From an uncultured Prevotellaceae bacterium (GTDB lineage: Bacteria; Bacteroidota; Bacteroidia; Bacteroidales; Bacteroidaceae), in assembly GCA_900315105.1 (NCBI GenBank), contig OMXX01000186.1:1-9376 (forward strand): DNA of 9,376 nucleotides. The letters are read 5' to 3'. A program made the position numbers and the translations under genes. Shown one piece after another: positions 305 to 9,327 of the stretch (within the stretch, counting starts at the first letter, position 1; each line of letters begins with the position of its first letter). The notes under the pieces were generated by a model, which saw nothing but the letters and a program-made list of their open reading frames with translations, was not told the DNA's origin and did not search any database.

Positions 305-502
305 TTAACGTGAGTTCGATGAATTGTTTTGTCGGCTTGCGCCCTGAAAAGGCAAAGTTTGCTCTTAGCCCAGGGCAACGCCCTGTGGTATTGGTTCAAT
401 AGATAGACTACGCCCTGAAAGGGCAAAAGCCCTAACATAAAGATGCTTTTTAGCTTGTTAGCCTTGCAGGCTGTTTCAGCAATTTGGTCGAACTCACGTT
501 AA
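305..502. repeat. 198-bp repeat element with perfect 15-bp terminal inverted repeats
   Basis: The left end TTAACGTGAGTTCGA (305-319) is the exact reverse complement of the right end TCGAACTCACGTTAA (488-502). The interior holds small palindromes: CAGGGC-aac-GCCCTG (371-385), GCCCT-gaa-AGGGC (412-424), and a weaker GCCCTGAAAAGGC at 341-353. At 453-470 the text resembles the reverse complement of the stop-adjacent repeat found elsewhere in this window (AGCTTGTTAGCCTT against AGCTTGTTGAGCCTT), and the right end is the same TCGAACTCACGTTAA that ends the copy at 4341-4394. No open frame of note lies inside. It resembles a MITE or a composite of REP-like palindromes; it carries no transposase. Confidence 0.65.
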
Positions 503-748: not shown

Positions 749-779
749 TTTCACGAAACTGAAAATGTTAGTACCTTTG
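749..779 (+). promoter_or_regulatory. Candidate Bacteroidetes promoter for the first OsmC-like gene
   Basis: TACCTTTG at 772-779 fits the Bacteroidetes -7 consensus TAnnTTTG. A TTTC at 749-752 lies 19 bp upstream, one base off the -33 TTTG; an exact TTTG occurs at 742-745 but its 26-bp spacing is long. Transcription would begin in or near the GCACTC that follows, leaving a leader of roughly 280 nt before the start at 1066. The -7 match is observed; promoter activity is inferred. Confidence 0.5.
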
Positions 780-1020
780 CACTCGGGAAATGAAACATGC
801 GCCAGCCTTTTGGGCTGACACGCATTTTTCCCTTCGTGCGAGGATGCTTCGCACGTTGCACTCAGAAATCAGAGACGTCCACCGGCTTGCAACCGACGTT
901 GACTATTTTTTCGCAAAGCTCAACAAGCTAAAGCAAGTCTTTCGTGCGAGGAAGTCCGACGTTGATAATATCGGAGTATGTGGAAATCGCACGTTGCACT
1001 CGGAATATAGTCCAAAAACG
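777..1020 (+). repeat. Structured leader repeat array, copy 1 (two units plus a partial third)
   Basis: Units open with TTGCACTC and close with GCACG. Unit 1 is 777-855, unit 2 is 856-993, and a partial third begins at 994. Unit 1 folds as an outer stem (GGGAAA at 785 with TTTCCC ending at 832), ATGCG/CGCAT, an inner CAGCC-ttttg-GGCTG hairpin, then a terminal hairpin CGTGCGA-ggatgct-TCGCACG at 835-855. Unit 2 keeps the inner region and the closing CGTGCGA (943-949) / TCGCACG (987-993), but carries extra sequence in two places. The same unit family recurs at 5854-6086, again immediately after a TAnnTTTG box. It probably forms the 5' untranslated leader of the gene at 1066. A 78-codon frame across it (790-1026) is judged non-coding. 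Confidence 0.65.
905..939 (+). repeat. Stop-adjacent repeat core inserted in leader unit 2
   Basis: The text TCGCAAAGCTCAACAAGCTA and the following AAGCAAGTC (911-939), preceded by a T run, match the core of the repeat at 4341-4394, 5613-5671 and, inverted, 9278-9327. It lies exactly where leader unit A (5854-5931) has only a short T-rich join, so it looks like an insertion into unit 2 or a recombinant between the two repeat families. It lacks the TCGAACTCACGTTAA end seen in the other copies. Confidence 0.55.
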
Positions 1021-1053
1021 ATATAATAATAAAAACAATATAATAATAAAAAA

Positions 1054-1058
1054 AGGAG
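1054..1058 (+). promoter_or_regulatory. Unusually clear Shine-Dalgarno site
   Basis: AGGAG lies 7 nt before the ATG at 1066, in an A-rich context. Most genes here, as is typical of Bacteroidetes, have only A/T-rich upstream sequence, so a strong site is notable and supports this start. Confidence 0.55.
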
Positions 1059-1065
1059 ATTCAGG

Positions 1066-2271
1066 ATGAACAAAACAAACAGATCCATCATTCTCACAGC
1101 CGCTCTGGCTTTAGCGTTGGGCGGAGTACATGCACAGGGCGTAAACGGTGTGTTTGCCTCTGCAAAGAAAAAAGCAATACTTGAAAAAAACGCACCAACA
1201 TTGCGTCAACATCTCAAGGAACGCAAGACTGCACTTGAGGCATGGAACGCTCTTCCTGCAAGCGAGCTGAAACCAGTAACACTAACCGCTAACGTAGTAG
1301 CCAAGAATCGTGCTGGCTACCGCGAACTTAGAGTGCGTGAGTTTCATTATGTAGGTGACTGCGGATATACTGATGGCGGACAGGACGCTGGCGTGGAGAC
1401 ACAGACTACGGCAGCAGCGGTATTTGCCTCTGACCTTGCCGACAGCTACATCAATCAGGCTGCACTTGCAGGGATAGATATTGACTCCCTGACAATAGAG
1501 ATACACGGACAGCCTGACAAAGAGCCTACAAATCGTGTAAAATACAATAGAAACTTCCTATACACCATATACGTGGATTCTCCTGCATCAGACGAGGAAC
1601 TTGAACGTCTGGCACAGTTGGCAGAAGAAAACTCATCGGTGGTAAACCTTATCAAACAGGCTGTTACAGTACCTGTAAACATTGTCTATAAGCATTCGCC
1701 ACGTGAACGTGTAATAGAAGGTGCAACTCTTGAGGGCTTGCGTGAGTATATCCACGGCAAGCGTCAGGCAAAACTTGCTTATCAGAGCAAACCAAGACCT
1801 GCGAATGCACCAGTAAAGAAGACAGGTCCTTGGGTTACGGTATTGCCTAACGGCACACGTCAGTTGACTATCAGCAACAAATATCTCATTGTTCACGACA
1901 ATCCTGCATATCTCGGCGGTACAAATCTCGGACTTACCTCTCGTGAGAACGCTCTTGGAGTGCTCGGCACCTGTCTTACGCATATTTCAGAGGGACAAGC
2001 TGCATTGCTGAATCTCGACATTGACTCTTTGCATGTTCAGGTAGAGGGCGAGTGGGATCCCCGTGCCGGACGCAAGGGATTCGAGAATGAGTCTATTGCT
2101 CCGCAGAACCTGCGAGTAACACTCTATGTTACTACTCCTGAACCTTATACAGCCATTGAGAAGTGGATTGAGCAAACGGAGAATGTATGTCCTATGTATA
2201 ATGTGTTCAAGGATACTCAGACTTTCGAGCATAAGATAATAAGGGTTAAGAAAAAAGGAAGTAAGAAGTAA
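1066..2271 (+). CDS. Secreted tandem OsmC-like domain protein, paralog 1
   Basis: A 401-residue exported protein with two OsmC/Ohr-like domains. OsmC-fold proteins are thiol-dependent hydroperoxide reductases or related thiol proteins using two cysteines. Residues 1-24 form a signal peptide (hydrophobic IILTAALALALGG, probable cleavage near AHAQ-like VHAQ). A helical stretch (about 45-65) leads to domain 1 (about 70-210), with GGQDAG, QAALAGIDIDSLTIEIHG and FLYTIYVDSP. A basic linker follows (about 215-255). Domain 2 (about 256-393) carries LGGTNLG, LGTCLTH, IDSLHVQVEGE and ENVCPMYN. Domain 2 has both expected cysteines, C303 and C375. In domain 1 the equivalent positions are D123 (ASDLAD) and S190 (NSSVVN), so it is probably non-catalytic; C99 is an extra cysteine. 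Likely periplasmic. A paralog follows after 46 nt, suggesting co-transcription. The OsmC assignment rests on motifs read by eye; the substrate is unknown. Confidence 0.8.
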   Translation: MNKTNRSIILTAALALALGGVHAQGVNGVFASAKKKAILEKNAPTLRQHLKERKTALEAWNALPASELKPVTLTANVVAKNRAGYRELRVREFHYVGDCGYTDGGQDAGVETQTTAAAVFASDLADSYINQAALAGIDIDSLTIEIHGQPDKEPTNRVKYNRNFLYTIYVDSPASDEELERLAQLAEENSSVVNLIKQAVTVPVNIVYKHSPRERVIEGATLEGLREYIHGKRQAKLAYQSKPRPANAPVKKTGPWVTVLPNGTRQLTISNKYLIVHDNPAYLGGTNLGLTSRENALGVLGTCLTHISEGQAALLNLDIDSLHVQVEGEWDPRAGRKGFENESIAPQNLRVTLYVTTPEPYTAIEKWIEQTENVCPMYNVFKDTQTFEHKIIRVKKKGSKK

Positions 2272-2317
2272 TTGAAATCTCACATTAGTTTATCACTAAA
2301 AAAGAGTTTTAAGATTT

Positions 2318-3538
2318 ATGAAGAAGAATATAATAGCACTTACAATAGCCGCATTGTCGGTAGCAACAGCAGCACAGGCACAGGGACCGCTTGACGTATT
2401 CCGCTCTGATGCCACAAAACAGAAACTTGAACAGAACGCGCCAAGTCTGCGCAGTCACCTAAAGCAGCGCAGGGTGGCATTGGAAGCATGGAACGCTCTC
2501 GGTGCAAAGGATCTCAAGACCGTGACCCTTACAGCCAATGTAGTAGCAAAGAACCGCTCTGGCGCCCGTGAGTTGCGTGTAAGGGAGTTCCACTATCTTG
2601 GCGACTGCGGATATTCACACGGAGGACAGGACTCAGGAGTAGATACACCGACAACGGCACAGGCAGTATTCGCCTCTGACCTTGCCGACAGCTATCTTAA
2701 CCAGGCTGCACTACTCGGTATTGACATCGATTCACTGACGATTGAGATTCACGGGCAGCCGGACAAGGAGCCTACAGGACGAGTGTGGTATCCACGTAAC
2801 TTTCTCTATACGCTCTATATTGATTCACCGGCAAGTGATGCAGAACTGGAAAAGCTCGCGGTACTTGCAGAACAGAACTCGCCGATAGCAACGCTCGTTA
2901 AGCAAGCTGTAGTGCCACAGCTCACCATTGACCTGAAGCCATCACCACGTGTGAAAAAGGTGGAGGGTGAAACACTTGCAGGACTTCGTGAGTACATCCA
3001 CGGCAAGCGTCAGGCATTCCAGGCAAGTCGTGCAAAGCAGGAGCAACAGAAGAAAGAGAACAATGGCAAGAAGGACTCAAAGCCACAGGCTCCAAAGCAC
3101 GGTCCATGGGTGAAGGTATTCCCTAACGGTGTGCGTCAGTTGACGGTGAACGACAAATATCTCATTCTGCACGACAATCCAGAATATCTCGGAGGTAGCA
3201 ACACGGGCATGACATCACTTGAGGGTACGCTGGGCATTCTTGGCACTTGTATTACGCACATCTCACTTGGACAGGCAGCAGAACTGAATCTTGATGTTGA
3301 CTCAGTATCGCTCACCGTACAGGCAGAGTGGAATCCTGTAGCAGGTCGCAAGGGACATGAGAATGAGTCAATAGCATTGCAGAATGTGCGCTACACCCTC
3401 CATGCTCTGACACCAGAGAGTGAAGACAAGGTTAAGGAGTGGCTCAAGCGTGTAGAAAACATCTGTCCGATGTATAATCTCTTCAAGGATACCCAGACTT
3501 TCGAGCATAAGATTGTTAGAGGAAGTTTTAAGAGATAA
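2318..3538 (+). CDS. Secreted tandem OsmC-like domain protein, paralog 2
   Basis: A 406-residue close paralog of the preceding gene, alignable end to end with long shared blocks such as LTANVVAKNR, VFASDLADSY, REYIHGKRQA and KDTQTFEHKI. The signal peptide is MKKNIIALTIAALSVATAAQAQ. Domain 1 covers about 68-205 and domain 2 about 262-400. Domain 2 retains C311 (LGTCITH) and C383 (ENICPMYN). Domain 1 has D121 and S188 at the equivalent sites; S188-P189 looks like a CP motif whose Cys became Ser. C97 in GDCGY is shared with paralog 1. The linker (about 236-260) is longer and Lys/Gln-rich, the main length difference. The gene begins 46 nt after its paralog with no visible promoter or terminator between, so an operon formed by tandem duplication is likely. 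Role inferred: envelope peroxide or thiol chemistry, perhaps as a heterodimer with paralog 1, since OsmC proteins usually act as dimers. Confidence 0.8.
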   Translation: MKKNIIALTIAALSVATAAQAQGPLDVFRSDATKQKLEQNAPSLRSHLKQRRVALEAWNALGAKDLKTVTLTANVVAKNRSGARELRVREFHYLGDCGYSHGGQDSGVDTPTTAQAVFASDLADSYLNQAALLGIDIDSLTIEIHGQPDKEPTGRVWYPRNFLYTLYIDSPASDAELEKLAVLAEQNSPIATLVKQAVVPQLTIDLKPSPRVKKVEGETLAGLREYIHGKRQAFQASRAKQEQQKKENNGKKDSKPQAPKHGPWVKVFPNGVRQLTVNDKYLILHDNPEYLGGSNTGMTSLEGTLGILGTCITHISLGQAAELNLDVDSVSLTVQAEWNPVAGRKGHENESIALQNVRYTLHALTPESEDKVKEWLKRVENICPMYNLFKDTQTFEHKIVRGSFKR

Positions 3539-3549
3539 AATTATCACAT

Positions 3550-3673
3550 AAGTGAAGAGTGAAGAACTAAGAGTGAAGAATTTAAGTTAGTATTGCAGTT
3601 TAAGGTCGTTTATTAACTTAGCGCTATAAAATGTAACTTAAATTCTTCACTTTTCACTCTTAGCTCTTCACTT
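3550..3673. repeat. 124-bp inverted-repeat element with 40-nt arms
   Basis: The left arm 3550-3589 and right arm 3634-3673 are each 40 nt and pair at about 34 of 40 positions; the outer ten (AAGTGAAGAG) and inner ten (ATTTAAGTTA) match perfectly. The mispaired middle comes from shuffled GTGAAGA-type subrepeats. A 44-nt spacer lies between and contains another TAACTTA. The element fills the gap between the OsmC-like pair and the next gene and ends 18 nt before that gene's ATG. It could be a MITE-like insertion, and as RNA it would fold into a long stem that may terminate, attenuate or protect the transcript. Confidence 0.6.
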
Positions 3674-3691
3674 TCTTAATTCTTAAGAACA

Positions 3692-4342
3692 ATGGAATAT
3701 CAGAGACTCACTATACTCACAACGTTAGCACTTGCTGGCATTCAGCCCTCGTTTTCCCGACAGGGCGCACCGTTGGCTTGGACTTCTCTTTCTGATTCAG
3801 AAGGAAACGCAACTTCAAAAAAAATAGATGCGGACTCGCTAAGATATGCTTTCCCTCCTGTATTCCAGGCGGTGACTCCTCATCAGTCTTTGGATTCGCT
3901 TCAAGCAGAAGCAATACGACAGATTGCTGCACGACAAGGAAAGCATTATGGTTGCTCTGCCATCTCGCTGACTTCCATAGCCGCCACATTAGGATCTGTC
4001 TTTACCGAGAAGCAACTGAGGAGTATGTCAGAAAGTTTCTCGGGCGGTATAGGTCACAAGTTCTCTCAAGGTACATGCGGAGCACTGTCAGGTGCTATAA
4101 TGGCTCTCGGTTTCTATGCACACGGTGACAAGGAGAAGCATCAGCGTCTGGCAAGCGAGGTGTATGATGAACTCAAGAAACAAGAGGGTTCCGTTGTTTG
4201 TGGTGACATATATGGTAAATTCCACTTCGGACATTGTAACGGTTGTATCGGATGCGTCGTGAGCAAGGTGCTGGAAATACTCTACCGCGAAAAAGATATT
4301 CAGACAAAGACAATTCAAATTACTGATTTTTCACATAGGTAA
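3692..4342 (+). CDS. C_GCAxxG_C_C family redox protein with exported-type N-terminus
   Basis: A 216-residue protein whose part from about residue 70 matches the C_GCAxxG_C_C family, putative redox-active proteins of about 140 residues with four conserved cysteines and a CGAxxG motif. Visible landmarks are C88 in YGCSA, the SGGIGHKF stretch, C129 in TCGALSGAIMALG (the CGAxxG motif), C170 in SVVCGD and a final cluster C182, C185, C188 in HCNGCIGC, which has one or two cysteines more than needed. The first about 22 residues (hydrophobic LTILTTLALAGI) look like a weak signal peptide, and a polar stretch of about 45 residues precedes the domain, so it may act in the periplasm like its OsmC-like neighbours. 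This is the first ATG after an in-frame stop at 3677-3679. Function in this family is not established; a thiol relay partner is inference. Confidence 0.75.
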   Translation: MEYQRLTILTTLALAGIQPSFSRQGAPLAWTSLSDSEGNATSKKIDADSLRYAFPPVFQAVTPHQSLDSLQAEAIRQIAARQGKHYGCSAISLTSIAATLGSVFTEKQLRSMSESFSGGIGHKFSQGTCGALSGAIMALGFYAHGDKEKHQRLASEVYDELKKQEGSVVCGDIYGKFHFGHCNGCIGCVVSKVLEILYREKDIQTKTIQITDFSHR

Positions 4343-4394
4343 TTTTTGTTCGCTTTGGCTCACCAAGCTGAAGCAAGTCATCGAACTCACGTTA
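4341..4394 (+). repeat. Stop-adjacent ~50-bp repeat, copy after the redox gene
   Basis: The repeat starts inside the TAA stop (4340-4342) of the preceding gene and runs AATTTTTGTTCGCTTTGGCT, then CACCAAGCTGAAGCAAGTC, then ATCGAACTCACGTTAA. The same unit in the same sense orientation follows the stop of the lipoprotein gene (5613-5671) and, on the minus strand, a probable stop at 9326-9328. It contains only a weak GGCT/AGCT hairpin, so it is not an obvious intrinsic terminator by itself. Confidence 0.6.
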
Positions 4395-4496
4395 AAAAAA
4401 ATTATTGCTATCCGGTAAAAACAAAAACCAGGAAAAAACATAAAAAAGCCAATCACAACCTTACGCTGATGGTTATATGCTTTTTCCTGTTTTTAA
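4395..4496. other. A/T-rich spacer with a weak terminator-like hairpin
   Basis: AAAAAGC (4443-4449) and GCTTTTT (4479-4485) form a 7-bp inverted repeat ending in a T run, with AACC/GGTT inside the loop. It could end transcription of the redox gene, but it is AT-rich and the loop is long. A 74-codon frame (4346-4570) crosses this region and the repeats on both sides; I do not believe it is a gene. Confidence 0.25.
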
Positions 4497-4618
4497 CCTT
4501 AATGTCTTGCCGTAGGCCTGATATGTGTATTTATTTTATCGGGAAGCCCAAGGGCTTACCAGAAAAATAAATACGCATAGCAGCAAGAGGCGAGGAACGA
4601 GACTCTAAGACATTAAGG
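4497..4618. repeat. 122-bp nested palindromic element
   Basis: Three nested inverted repeats share one centre. The outer pair is CCTTAATGTCTT (4497-4508) with AAGACATTAAGG (4607-4618), perfect over 12 bp. The middle pair is ATGTGTATTTATTTT (4523-4537) with AAAATAAATACGCAT (4564-4578), 14 of 15. The inner pair is AAGCCC (4544-4549) with GGGCTT (4552-4557) around a 2-nt loop. GGGGTTTTT follows on the right (4617-4625). It lies about 55 nt upstream of the lipoprotein gene. It may be a small non-autonomous mobile element or a long RNA stem; the internal asymmetry (the right side has about 14 nt more between outer and middle stems) argues against a simple terminator. Confidence 0.6.
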
Positions 4619-4673
4619 GGTTTTTATTGTTTTTGTAGAGGTTTATCGGACAGTAATAAAAGAAAATAAGAAC

Positions 4674-5609
4674 ATGAAGAAATTAGCATTATATTTGACT
4701 ATAGGTTTGTTCTCGGCAAATATCTTCTCATCATGCAGTAGCAGCGAAGAAAACAGCACTGTGAGTATCACCATTCCTGAAGATGTGGAATGCTGTAATG
4801 CGGAAGAGACTTTCCTTGCCTACACCTTCCTGAACAATAGCTACGTAAAGGAGATACCTTCGTTGCGCGACACTATTGGGCAGAAATATGCGGTAAGTGT
4901 CTATTCCACCAACGGAAAACTGCACTTGGGTTACAACGACTTGTTCTTTACCGTGACCAAGATCTCAAATCAGGGATATGTACGTAATTTCACTGTTACG
5001 GATATTACGCCTGTTATGACCATGACGGCTATGGGGATGAAACATTCAACCCCTGCAATAACCGAGAGCAAGGTTTATGACGAGACGTTTCCTGCCGTGC
5101 AACGTGCATGGGTATCGTATATAATGAGTACGAGCGACAATGGTTTTTGGGAATTATCATACAAGATTTCAACTAACGGACTGTCAACCGTTCACGCTCC
5201 ATCGAAGATAACCGTGGATGCGCTGGCTCAGGGGCAGACATGGCTGAAGTCGTTCAAGTACAATGACACGACTTACTATCTCACTCTCGTAAATCCTAAC
5301 AACTACCAGACTGGTAACAATACCATTGAGGCTTACATATCGAAGCAGGGAACAGACAAGGAAGAGCCATACCTCCTGTCGGATGATAAGTTTACTATCG
5401 AGATCTATCCTACCATGCCTGACATGGGCAACCATACATCACCCGGCAACAAGGCTCTCACCCTGCAAGAAGACGGTAGTTACAAAGGTCTGCTTAACCT
5501 TACCATGACTGGTACATGGGATATTCATCTGCATATAAAGGATGCCGACGGTAATACGGTGGCTGGAGACGAAGGGTTGAGCAACCTATATTGGACGGTT
5601 ACTATTTAA
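4674..5609 (+). CDS. Lipoprotein with two YtkA/FixH-like domains
   Basis: A 311-residue lipoprotein. The signal peptide is MKKLALYLTIGLFSANIFSS followed by the lipid-anchor Cys at 21; SSSEEN after it is acidic and may direct the protein to the cell surface, as seen for many Bacteroidetes lipoproteins. Two related modules are visible. Module 1 (about 70-165) has LHLGYNDLFFTV, then PVMTMTAMGMKHSTP (113-127) and FWELSYKI. Module 2 (about 190-311) has YYLTLVNP, then YPTMPDMGNHTSPGN (245-259), GSYKGLLNLTMTGTWDIHLHI and a terminal strand. The Met/His clusters followed by G-x-Y...MTG-x-W are the signature of YtkA-like and FixH-type domains. Such Bacteroidetes lipoproteins are often uncharacterised; the Met-rich clusters suggest copper handling, but this is inference. 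No partner gene such as a copper pump or cytochrome oxidase is in view. No promoter was recognised between the upstream palindrome and the ATG. Confidence 0.7.
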   Translation: MKKLALYLTIGLFSANIFSSCSSSEENSTVSITIPEDVECCNAEETFLAYTFLNNSYVKEIPSLRDTIGQKYAVSVYSTNGKLHLGYNDLFFTVTKISNQGYVRNFTVTDITPVMTMTAMGMKHSTPAITESKVYDETFPAVQRAWVSYIMSTSDNGFWELSYKISTNGLSTVHAPSKITVDALAQGQTWLKSFKYNDTTYYLTLVNPNNYQTGNNTIEAYISKQGTDKEEPYLLSDDKFTIEIYPTMPDMGNHTSPGNKALTLQEDGSYKGLLNLTMTGTWDIHLHIKDADGNTVAGDEGLSNLYWTVTI

Positions 5610-5612
5610 TAG

Positions 5613-5671
5613 TAACGTGAATTTCTCGCTAAGGCTCAACAAGCTAAAGCAAGTCGTCGAGCTGACGTTAA
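5613..5671 (+). repeat. Stop-adjacent ~50-bp repeat, copy after the lipoprotein gene
   Basis: Beginning 4 nt after the lipoprotein stop (5607-5609), the text reads TAACGTGAATTTCTCGC, then TAAGGCTCAACAAGCTAAAG, then CAAGTCGTCGAGCTGACGTTAA. TAACGT at the left and ACGTTA at the right make short inverted ends, which the copy at 4341-4394 lacks on its left side. The orientation relative to the upstream gene matches that copy. Confidence 0.6.
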
Positions 5672-5819
5672 TTATGAGTGTGGCGCCTCTATGGAATACC
5701 GTTATCGACTATGCCCACACTTGGCGTTAGACACATAAGTAATCTAGATTGTCGCTTCACATCGTGAAGAATATATTTTTTTAATCTTTATTCGATTCGG
5801 GTGTCGAAGTTCTTGGAGC
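5672..5819. other. Intergenic spacer with inverted repeats, no gene seen
   Basis: AGTGTGG (5677-5683) and CCACACT (5715-5721) form a 7-bp inverted repeat with a 31-nt loop, just after the stop-adjacent repeat; it may be part of a transcript end. ATTCGGG (5795-5801) pairs with CCCGAAT (5826-5832). No convincing reading frame is present. Confidence 0.35.
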
Positions 5820-5856
5820 TTTGCGCCCGAATTTTCAATTAAAATTCGTAACTTTG
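5820..5856 (+). promoter_or_regulatory. Candidate Bacteroidetes promoter for the symporter gene, with overlapping palindrome
   Basis: TAACTTTG (5849-5856) fits the -7 consensus TAnnTTTG. TTTG at 5820-5823 is a possible -33 box, though the 25-bp gap is longer than usual. A perfect palindrome CGAATTTT-caatt-AAAATTCG (5828-5848) fills the spacer and abuts the -7 box, an arrangement expected of an operator where bound repressor would block polymerase. The downstream bases GCACTC are identical to those after the promoter at 749-779. The pattern is observed; regulation is inferred. Confidence 0.5.
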
Positions 5857-6086
5857 CACTCAGAAATCGGAGACGTCCACCAGCTTGCAGCTGACGTTGA
5901 CTATTTCTTTCGTGCGAGGATGCTTCGCACGTTGCACTCGAAAGATTGAAACGCGCACCGGCTTGCAGCCGACGTTCGCTATCTTTCGAGCGCGAGGTGC
6001 AAAGCACGTTGTCACTCGAAAGATTGAAACGCGCACCGGCTTGCAACCGACGTTCGCTATCTTCCGAGTGCGAAATATGAAGCACG
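5854..6086 (+). repeat. Structured leader repeat array, copy 2 (three tandem 77-78-nt units)
   Basis: Unit A is 5854-5931 (78 nt), B 5932-6008 (77) and C 6009-6086 (78). Each begins TTG(T)CACTC and ends GCACG. All share one layout: outer stem, inner hairpin, terminal GTGC...GCAC hairpin. The outer stems are AGAAAT/ATTTCT in A (5862-5867, 5903-5908) and CTCGAAAGAT/ATCTTTCGAG in B (5937-5946, 5981-5990); C has one mismatch. The inner hairpins are CAGCT-tgc-AGCTG in A and CGGCT-tgc-AGCCG in B, a paired G/C-to-A/T change; C has a partly broken CGGCT/AACCG. B and C are nearly identical. The array would form most of the leader of the symporter mRNA. Its frame stays open by chance (5885-6139) because 78 is a multiple of 3; I regard it as non-coding. 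Confidence 0.75.
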
Positions 6087-6142: not shown

Positions 6143-7357
6143 ATGAAGAAGACATTAATATGGATAGGAGCACTCATAGTTGGTGCATTATTAGGATTAT
6201 TAGGCCTTGGCTGGCTCAACACGGTAATGGACTTCATAGCAACGGTCTATACCCGCCTATTCCAGCTATTGGCTGTCCCTACAATCGTACTGGCTGTCAT
6301 CACCACCTTCGCAACCTTCGGTTCTCAGGGCTCTGGCAGAATCTTCGGCCGTACACTCACATATACCCTTCTGACCACCTTCGCAGCTGCCACCGTGGGA
6401 GCTATACTGTTCGTGTTGGTTGCTCCGGGGAACCTACCATTGGAGGCTATAAACAATAGCGCCGACACAACAGACGTCAGTACTCAGACCTCATACATCG
6501 ACCATATCATCAGCATCATACCTAACAACATCGTACGACCGATCCTTGAAGGTAACGTCCTATCATTGCTCCTGCTCGCTTTCGCTGTCGGCATCGGATT
6601 GTCAAAACTGCCTGAATCAGAGAACAAGGCAGTGGTGGTGAAGGGATTGTCAGGACTGCAAGAGCTGCTGTTCCTGCTCATCCGCGGACTTATCTGGACT
6701 CTCCCACTCGGCATCGTGGCATTCTCAGCCCAGCTCTCTGCCCAGATTTCAGCAGGCATGGTGGCCGACTCCATCGGGAAATACGTATTGGTGGTAATCG
6801 GAGGAAACGTGATACAGTTCTTTGTCGTCCTACCATTGTTCCTATTATCAAGAGGCTTGAATCCTATTCATGTGTTAGGCAAGATGACACCCGCCGTACT
6901 CATGGCACTCTTCACAAAGAGCAGCGCGGCAACCCTTCCCGTGACTATGGAAACGGCCGAGAACCGTCTGGGAGTACGCAAGAACATCGCTCGTTTCGTA
7001 CTTCCTATTTGCACCACGATAAACATGAACGGATGTGCAGCCTTCATCCTTGTCACCTCCCTCTTTGTGATGCAGAACGGCGGCACCCCGATCACGTTGC
7101 CGACAATCCTGCTATGGATATTAATCTCCGTTGTCTCAGCCGTAGGCAATGCCGGAGTACCTATGGGCTGTTATTTCCTAACCCTCTCGCTTATGTCAGG
7201 CGTTGGAGCTCCGATAGCCATTCTCGGTATCATACTGCCTATCTACACCATCATCGACATGATAGAGACAGCCGAAAACGTATGGTCAGACTCATGCGTG
7301 GCAGCCATAGTGAACAGCTACGACAAGGAGACAGCCTCCCCTACTCCCGCAGTCTGA
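6143..7357 (+). CDS. Dicarboxylate/amino acid:cation symporter (DAACS/SDF family)
   Basis: A 404-residue inner-membrane protein of the SDF family, which couples uptake of acidic or neutral amino acids or C4-dicarboxylates to Na+ or H+. Hydrophobic segments occur near 5-25, 36-58, 72-94, 138-155, 172-197, 214-236, 289-310, 318-335 and 345-371. The hairpin-1 signature TKSSAATLPVTM is at 258-269. The unwound TM7 motif is NMNGC (294-298) where GltPh has NMDGT. Hairpin 2 is at about 335-357 (VGNAGVPMG...SGVGAP). TM8 reads DMIETAENVWSD (372-383): D372, N379 and D383 align with GltPh D394, N401 and D405, but E375 replaces R397, which binds the substrate side-chain carboxylate in acidic amino-acid carriers. 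K259 aligns near GltPh R276. The family is certain; the altered site makes glutamate/aspartate or dicarboxylate specificity doubtful. A leader of about 280 nt with tandem structured repeats precedes it. Confidence 0.9.
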   Translation: MKKTLIWIGALIVGALLGLLGLGWLNTVMDFIATVYTRLFQLLAVPTIVLAVITTFATFGSQGSGRIFGRTLTYTLLTTFAAATVGAILFVLVAPGNLPLEAINNSADTTDVSTQTSYIDHIISIIPNNIVRPILEGNVLSLLLLAFAVGIGLSKLPESENKAVVVKGLSGLQELLFLLIRGLIWTLPLGIVAFSAQLSAQISAGMVADSIGKYVLVVIGGNVIQFFVVLPLFLLSRGLNPIHVLGKMTPAVLMALFTKSSAATLPVTMETAENRLGVRKNIARFVLPICTTINMNGCAAFILVTSLFVMQNGGTPITLPTILLWILISVVSAVGNAGVPMGCYFLTLSLMSGVGAPIAILGIILPIYTIIDMIETAENVWSDSCVAAIVNSYDKETASPTPAV

Positions 7358-9277: not shown

Positions 9278-9327
9278 AACGTGAGTTCGACGACTTGCGT
9301 AGCTTGTTGAGCCTTAGCGAAAAATTT
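9278..9327 (-). repeat. Stop-adjacent ~50-bp repeat, minus-strand copy
   Basis: Read on the minus strand it is AAATTTTTCGCTAAGGCTCA, then ACAAGCTACGCAAGTCGTC, then GAACTCACGTT, the same unit as at 4341-4394 and 5613-5671. It begins within a probable minus-strand TAA stop at 9326-9328, so its placement relative to the gene matches the other two copies. Confidence 0.6.

Follow-up and report, generated by a model that had tools for sequence, protein, structure and literature searches.

A structured repeat that starts at the promoter −7 box in an uncultured Prevotellaceae bacterium and its relatives, probably a small mobile element

Two regions of a 9,376-nucleotide (nt) contig from an uncultured Prevotellaceae bacterium (GenBank OMXX01000186.1, assembly GCA_900315105.1; the whole contig is referred to below as the window) raise the question of how the same hairpin-forming repeat came to stand at the start of two unlinked genes. 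The repeat is present as an array of two units and the partial start of a third at positions 777-1020, and as an array of three units at 5854-6086. The original prediction, made from this DNA alone, offered two answers: a family of cis-acting RNAs not described before, or a repeat that is mobile and aimed at transcription start sites. Here we describe a dispersed repeat family with a narrow and patchy distribution, the units of which start, almost always, at the TTG of a TAnnTTTG −7 box. On the strength of its dispersal, its exact placement, its presence in some and absence from other orthologous promoters, the differing cores found at a single promoter and the covariation of paired bases, all of which are observed, we consider it probable that the repeat is a small non-coding, non-autonomous mobile element which targets the core promoter, supplies TTTGCA of its own to restore the box and ends up as a hairpin-bearing 5′ leader.

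Distribution and anatomy of the repeat

For comparative analysis, 22 units were aligned with MAFFT, a structure was written for them, and a covariance model (R1) was built. In G001, the genome nearest to the window, blastn with the second array recovered at least 33 places among the best 40 of 62 candidates scored. At E ≤ 1e-3, R1 matched 69 places in G001, 35 in G002 and one in G009, with no match in the other 37 of the 40 relatives searched; elsewhere, matches were found in G249 (89), G226 (75), G088 (67), G128 (44), G358 (19) and G233 (3). Thus, further copies, on the existence of which the prediction depended, number in the dozens among relatives. In a draw of genomes from the genus, at least 20 of 398 contained a match (a lower bound obtained at E ≤ 1e-4 with stricter filters and 11 candidates scored per genome), and in a draw from the family, 4 of 251 did so, namely, G001 and three genomes from other genera with a single match each. 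The named records with orthologs of the transporter gene located behind the second array belong to Prevotella, Xylanibacter and metagenome-assembled genomes (MAGs) of Prevotellaceae, Bacteroidaceae or Bacteroidales, and many isolate names point to ruminant stomachs. Collections of phages and plasmids yielded no match to the second array at the sensitivity used, and a phage or plasmid vehicle was accordingly rejected.

In each unit, TTGCACTC is followed by a left arm some 6 nt long, two stacked stems that form the core, a right arm, GTGCGA, a linker, and GCAC(G) or the next TTGCACTC. The R1 matches have a median length of 79 nt (range 42-109; 72-84 nt in 190 of 236). Several kinds of cores could be told apart by eye: core A (GTGCGCCAGCC..GGCTGACACGCAC), core B (GTCCACCGGC..GCCGACGTTGAC), core C, found in G002, core D (GGGCACCGCT..AGCGACAAGCCC) and one further kind that carries GCGCACCGGC. 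Near-identical cores are present at unrelated genes inside one genome. The units of one array (L392, G128:C30) illustrate covariation strongly, an unusual outer arm, GATGGT, being matched there by ACCATC on the right.

Placement at the −7 box

The position of the units relative to promoters was determined from R1 matches, the model itself containing no bases upstream of the TTG. The placement set comprised 97 of the 104 matches in G001 and G002 (68 of 69 and 29 of 35, respectively), which collapse into 72 groups. TANNT stands directly ahead of the unit TTG in 67 of these; of the remaining five, one lies at a contig end, three start within an array and one has TTACT instead. In the wider set of 236 matches, which contains three duplicates and one opposite-strand shadow of a near-palindrome, TANNT precedes 174, and another match lies immediately ahead of 52. 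The ten left were read by eye: three are cut by the contig end (L008, L153, L190), three are array-internal behind a visible unit tail (L152, and L170 twice), one is the opposite-strand shadow (L005), and two have TTACT boxes with similar upstream sequences (L022, L341), leaving L197 (36.9 bits) as the sole true exception.

The same placement emerges from a search free of TTGCAC, with the inner-hairpin pattern CGCCAGCCTN{1,10}GGCTGACA, which gave 75 matches in six genomes and none in G358, against 0 for the reversed control. Among 30 matches that were fetched, TAnnTTTG is found at the expected distance in 25, and the other five lie inside arrays. As a background, 400 kb of G001 contain 511 TTTGCA, with TANN ahead in 91 of 175 outside long open reading frames (ORFs) and in 17 of 336 inside them; hence, placement at promoters exceeds the expectation for a bare TTTGCA target. 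The sigma-A consensus box of Flavobacterium psychrophilum spans −12 to −5 (PMC9723704), and the same TAnnTTTG consensus applies in Bacteroides (PMC7366714). If this spacing is carried over to the window, transcription would start (+1) at 784 for the first promoter and at 5861 for the second, which would put the beginning of the unit's left arm at +2.

Empty and occupied orthologous promoters

Both arrays of the window are absent from orthologous loci. In L031, which lacks the first array, the promoter reads GTTAGTACCTTTGCACTCAGAAATAAG, the −7 box orthologous to 772..779 is conserved, and TTTGCACTCAGAAATAAG is found at the place corresponding to 994-1020; in L074, the promoter corresponding to that of the second array reads CGTATCTTTGCGACCGG (TATCTTTG), and the array is missing. 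Only one of 80 loci around orthologs of the window transporter, L074, contains an R1 match, so these loci (L031-L110) are poorly suited for the study of empty sites. We searched flank pieces of 20 G001 arrays against G249, G226, G358 and G128. Pairs were obtained for 17 of the 20 arrays, together with a stray one from L013, and 47 of the 53 pairs were kept after six without upstream alignment had been dropped. With 'filled' defined as any R1 match up to E = 1, 29 of the 47 orthologous promoters are empty and 18 are filled, although two of the latter appear empty by eye (L230, 19.5 bits; L229, 13.6 bits). TTTGC is intact in all 29 empty promoters.

Three loci provide clean junctions, and a fourth, L154, is less clear. 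At L155, TTGCAACTCGAAAAGTC in G128 corresponds to a unit followed by GCAACTCGAATAGTC in G226; at L004, TTGCACTCATCATTAGAATT in G128 corresponds to two units followed by TTTGCATTCACCATTAGAAT in G001; and at L019, TTGCATCGTCAAAAGG in three relatives corresponds to a unit followed by TTGCATCGTCAAAAGG in G001, where the reference copies may be paralogs, the flank matching several places per genome. In the cleaner pairs, TTGCA is present at both junctions and also in the element's own start. The occupants of one promoter can differ: L006 has two core-A units in G001 and a core-D unit in G249, with none in G226 and G358, and is empty in G128 save for a 19.5-bit match. L022 carries arrays in four genomes, whereas G358 has only GCAAAATTAAATTTGC. 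The latter locus (L209) displays a miniature GCAAA...ATTTGC hairpin at the promoter, which is either ancestral or the scar left by a deletion.

The position and orientation of the units, together with the empty sites, suggest insertion that is directed to the −7 box. The mobile alternative of the original prediction is well supported, since the repeat is dispersed, is missing from many orthologous sites and is placed almost without exception at that box. In the mechanism that we envisage, the element would insert with single-base precision at the TTGCA of promoters of the sigma-ABfr type (TAnnT|TTGCA), in sense orientation in the arrays examined. Because it starts with its own TTGCAC, the promoter would be rebuilt at the upstream junction, with the original TTGCA... 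pushed to the downstream side. The host message would then begin inside the element, with +1 roughly a single base ahead of the outer stem's left arm, and the mRNA would gain a branched hairpin leader at its 5′ terminus; tandem copies would be secondary. Movement would depend on an enzyme acting in trans. The −7 box is melted in open complexes, which, on the hypothesis that melted promoter DNA is chosen, would account for both the target and the strand. A 5′-terminal hairpin could slow decay that starts at the 5′ end; the effect on the mRNA may be mildly protective or neutral. Taken as a whole, the scenario in which the element inserts into the −7 box, most likely during the time that it is kept single-stranded by RNA polymerase, rebuilds the box, becomes the 5′ end of the message and spreads at little cost is a tentative one, which we rate somewhat short of even.

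Several observations weigh against insertion of a mobile element. A mobilising enzyme was sought via Y1 transposase genes, and no partner was found: Y1_Tnp is present in 10 of 14 genomes with no relation to whether the family occurs there, including G003, G005, G010 and G017, all without an R1 match at E ≤ 1e-3, and was not found in G249, with its 89 matches, or in G233. None of 18 Y1 loci scanned with R1, 8 of which were also scanned for motifs, gave a match at E ≤ 1, in MAGs that are incomplete. A Y1 partner was hence rejected, given that the Y1 genes do not track the family and have no unit at the 18 loci scanned. Conserved boxes are favoured by the requirement that, for a pair to be retained, its upstream alignment had to reach to within 14 nt of the box, and some of the empty sites, those reading TTTGCACTCAGAAAT..., may be what is left of an element since lost, their starts resembling it. 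The junction repeat is only TTGCA(C), common to element and target, which leaves the exact transferred segment ambiguous; a single-event insertion was not observed in the genomes compared; and the carrier genomes are MAGs, 79-97% complete, that may be misassembled at repeats. In helices 1-3 of both model-fitted alignments described below, G.U/U.G cells (106) barely outnumber A.C/C.A cells (77), and the minimum-energy folds of three of six units join the right arm to an inner GGAAA or GAAA rather than to the 5′ arm. Near one Y1 gene (L281, G128:C159), the minus strand carries GTGCGATAATATTTGTTATCTTTGCACC, which by eye somewhat resembles the G002 tail and contains no R1 unit.

Covariation and a possible role as an RNA leader

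The foremost alternative is that the repeat is a cis-acting regulatory or stabilising RNA leader, which spread by benefit to host genes, with a 5′ helix that protects the mRNA and selection that keeps the pairing. In the 22-row MAFFT alignment, 91.1% of cells pair, compared to 81.2% after shuffling, and 13 pairs have changes on both sides, compared to 6.6 in shuffles; the covariation score of 0.364 (0.172 shuffled) was reached by none of 500 shuffles, and controls in which the structure was slid along the alignment all remained at or below 0.122. The tail hairpin, helix 4, shows zero both-side changes in this alignment. Scores in the model-fitted alignments are 0.479 versus 0.172 (110 rows) and 0.407 versus 0.155 (126 rows), with the provisos that fitted alignments favour the structure, that the structure was drawn from the same units and that shuffles ignore relatedness. 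These results support covariation of three helices and bear out the compensatory stem changes on which the prediction of a structured family had rested. Orthologous copies also show paired changes: GGAAAT/ATTTCC has become GAAAAT/ATTTTC in L009/L181, GCAAAT/ATTTGC has become GAAAAT/ATTTTC in both arms of the first unit in L030/L329, and L267, L314 and L340 differ by AGAAAA/TTTTCT versus GGGAAA/TTTCC(A or C); mismatches are seen as well, namely, an uncompensated A.C in L001/L296 and a G.T in L182/L272. Folding of six transcribed parts gave z scores from −3.7 to −5.05 in five, the part at window positions 5939-6008 scoring −0.40. The start of the left arm at the predicted +2 would likewise suit a leader.

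Other lines of evidence fit a leader less well. The weak excess of G.U over A.C does not settle between RNA and a DNA-level process and does not favour selection on RNA, the outer arm adopts a different minimum-energy register in three of six units, and many orthologous promoters are empty. Moreover, the genes behind the repeat are an assortment. In 45 of 54 G001 groups an ORF of at least 70 codons begins within 350 nt (median 65 nt), and 14 such ORFs were assigned by Pfam to IPP transferase, pyruvate kinase, MgsA-type AAA ATPase, Lon N-terminal domain, HisG, class I and class II tRNA synthetase, glutamine amidotransferase domain, acyl carrier protein, ATP synthase, ClpS, TetR, C-5 DNA methylase and KilA-N. 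No regulon is apparent among the downstream genes examined. Rfam gave 0 matches at the gathering threshold and, at E up to 1, only ctRNA_pGA1 with 16.2 bits against a cut-off of 45. The regulon of one riboswitch-like RNA was thus rejected, the examined genes being unrelated and Rfam giving no family above threshold; so was an intrinsic terminator or attenuator, for which a U-run after the last hairpin would be required and none is present in the units inspected, whose tails mostly run on into TTGCACTC or a sequence like it. Of the undescribed structured RNA family originally proposed, the structure is therefore upheld by covariation, whereas a regulatory function finds no echo in the downstream genes examined. 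Overall, a leader spread by selection is a serious possibility, though one that we would not favour.

Transposition as single-stranded DNA, recombination and vertical descent

The repeat could alternatively be a single-stranded DNA element akin to IS200/IS605 or REP sequences, with TTGCA(C) as cleavage and target site, GTGCGA as guide, hairpins recognised by a Y1 transposase, and insertion into the non-template strand where the open promoter is melted. TTGCA(C) is commonly found on both flanks, the internal GTGCGA is complementary to TTGCAC (as judged from the sequence only), and the hairpins, the strict orientation and the lack of a clear G.U bias would all agree with such a lifestyle. Guide pairing selects the cleavage sites of IS200/IS605 elements, and those of one REP system can be shifted likewise (PMC8266576). 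This possibility is nevertheless unlikely, considering the Y1 survey above, with its family-independent occurrence of Y1_Tnp and no unit at any of the 18 loci, and the failure to find a GTAG or CGTC tag common to the 22 aligned units, CGTC being present in some cores only.

We consider equally improbable that recombination, rather than transposition, distributed the units, with copying via short homology (TAnnTTTGCACTC plus arm), growth of arrays by slippage and matching of the arms by template-switch correction of imperfect palindromes. Of 179 final units, 41 are followed in the flank by an exact copy of their arm, compared to a permutation mean of 9.3 (maximum 20; 2000 permutations). At L009/L181, a single substitution, GGAAAT to GAAAAT, is present in the left arm, the right arm and the repeat behind the unit alike, and in one G002 array nearly identical arms (GCAAA-) are paired with differing cores. 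Conversely, at L030/L329 the arm in the flank is unchanged while both inner arms have changed, and the insertions at L155 and L019 share little between target and element beyond TTGCA. Copies with common upstream sequence form 16 clusters, in which L186/L203 are one element encountered twice; clusters 7 and 16 hold two copies from a single genome and therefore include duplicated loci. Target-site duplication of the 14-nt start (TTGCACTC plus arm) was rejected as a general rule, given that several sites share little beyond TTGCA and that the arm is exactly repeated behind only the 41 final units; it may nonetheless apply at some loci.

Finally, although some promoters are occupied across several species (L022, L011, L157), vertical inheritance of old promoter-linked repeats with losses and no movement is very hard to reconcile with the narrow, patchy distribution, the near-identical cores at unrelated genes in one genome, the different cores at one promoter and the empty sites with native sequence immediately after TTGCA.

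The two arrays of the window and their surroundings

All features of the arrays lie on the forward strand, and both arrays begin in TAnnTTTG boxes, as had been proposed. The first box, TACCTTTG, occupies 772..779 and is assigned from its sequence and the published consensus and position. Unit 1 of the first array (777..855; R1, 99.3 bits) comprises outer arms at 785-790/827-832, inner stems at 797-801/821-825 and 803-808/812-817, and a tail hairpin at 835-843/847-855. Unit 2 (856..993) has an enlarged tail, R1 scoring 856-921 with 48.7 bits, and its right part is interrupted at about 905-940 by a different, foreign repeat; 994..1020 is a partial third unit or the retained original start region (TTGCACTCGGAATATAG). 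The reading of 777-1020 as an array thus holds for two units and is refined with respect to the third start and the interruption. The first gene after the array encodes an OsmC-like domain protein (1066..2271).

The second box, TAACTTTG, likewise recognised by sequence, occupies 5849..5856. Unit 1 of the second array (5854..5931; R1, 95 bits) has outer arms at 5862-5867/5903-5908 and a tail hairpin at 5911-5919/5923-5931; unit 2 (5932..6008; 66.4 bits) has a long outer stem, CTCGAAAGAT/ATCTTTCGAG; and unit 3 (6009..6086; 51.1 bits) is a near-copy of unit 2 (89%) with a decayed tail. A tandem repeat with a score of 274 covers 5878-6073. A gene of the sodium:dicarboxylate symporter family follows at 6143..7357. 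The R1 scores bear out the unit placement in both arrays, and all stems listed in the original prediction are present in the sequence (GGGAAA/TTTCCC, AGAAAT/ATTTCT, CTCGAAAGAT/ATCTTTCGAG, CAGCC/GGCTG, CAGCT/AGCTG and CGGCT/AGCCG). The claim that every unit closes with a GTGC...GCAC hairpin was too broad, the tails being altered in 856-993 and 6009-6086. When one mismatch is allowed, the window contains 12 occurrences of the 8-mer TTGCACTC against an expectation of 9.4, which is no enrichment.

An alternative tail, AAGTCCGA..TTGATAATATCGGAGTATG, between GTGCGAG and the closing CGCACG is shared by L161, L151 (with extra bases) and the window at about 948-993. A second dispersed repeat (AACGTGAGTTCGACGACTTGC...TAGCTTGTTGAGCCTTAGCGA) occurs in both orientations at window positions 305-345, 4350-4395, 5620-5671, 9278-9326 and about 905-940, and is also found inside a unit of the first family, at a like place, in L329 of G226. 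The OsmC-like gene has a tandem paralog (2318-3538), the DNA of the two being ~72% identical over long stretches. Between two genes, 3550-3673 contains 40-nt inverted repeat arms (85%) of the AGTGAAGAACTAAGAG type, and similar GTGAAGAACGAAGAGTGAAGA strings are located behind some elements (L147, L304, L310). A hairpin, GGGTGTCGAAGTTCTTGGAGCTTTGCGCCCGAA, at about 5795-5836, ahead of the transporter promoter, is probably the terminator of the upstream gene; hairpins like it precede the transporter gene in several other Prevotella loci.

Comparison with known systems

REP/REPIN sequences with their TnpA-REP (RAYT) enzymes resemble the present family in being short, dispersed, non-autonomous hairpin repeats with tens of copies per genome, and their presumed movement by a Y1 enzyme in trans is comparable to the in-trans movement envisaged here. 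However, REP/REPIN systems have a genome-encoded RAYT, whereas no linked Y1 gene was found here. REPs measure 20-40 bp (PMC3733652), as opposed to ~79 nt here, most carry GTAG or CGTC tags, as opposed to no shared tag, and, in the species plotted, they lie near the 3′ ends of ORFs rather than at the −7 box. The ends of IS200/IS605 elements (IS608, ISDra2) resemble the repeat in that a specific short sequence is the site of insertion and hairpins are subterminal; further common points are a possible pairing with a guide and, in the cleaner empty and filled pairs, a fixed target flank that is kept without long target duplication; the differences are the lack of an enzyme found here and the restriction of the target to promoters. 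The minisatellite-bearing miniature inverted-repeat transposable element (MITE) of Porphyromonas gingivalis (PMC4596501) is likewise a small non-autonomous Bacteroidales repeat with internal tandem units. Unlike MITEs, the units have no terminal inverted repeats, TTGCACTC and GCACG not being inverted repeats in the 22 aligned units, and the junction repeat is part of the promoter box. In putative mobile promoters, or promoter propagation, repeats are dispersed together with promoter sequence; here, a pre-existing promoter would be entered and rebuilt at the −7 box, not supplied whole. The yeast elements Ty1 and Ty3 also direct their integration to transcription start regions, but they are unrelated retroelements and the genes concerned are Pol III genes. 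Searches of open PMC articles, judged by title and abstract start, brought up no account of such a family or of a bacterial repeat confined to −7 boxes.

Implications

The usual descriptions of bacterial repeats place them at the ends of genes or dispersed in intergenic DNA, and landing at a single spot inside promoters is an unusual rule for a repeat of this kind. If the mobile-element interpretation is true, mobile DNA would be able to find safe harbour in core promoters, those of several housekeeping genes included, much as some yeast retroelements do in start regions. Natural matched sets of promoters with and without a 5′ hairpin would become available, and it would become testable whether open promoter complexes serve as insertion targets and whether 5′-terminal helices alter mRNA life in Bacteroidota.

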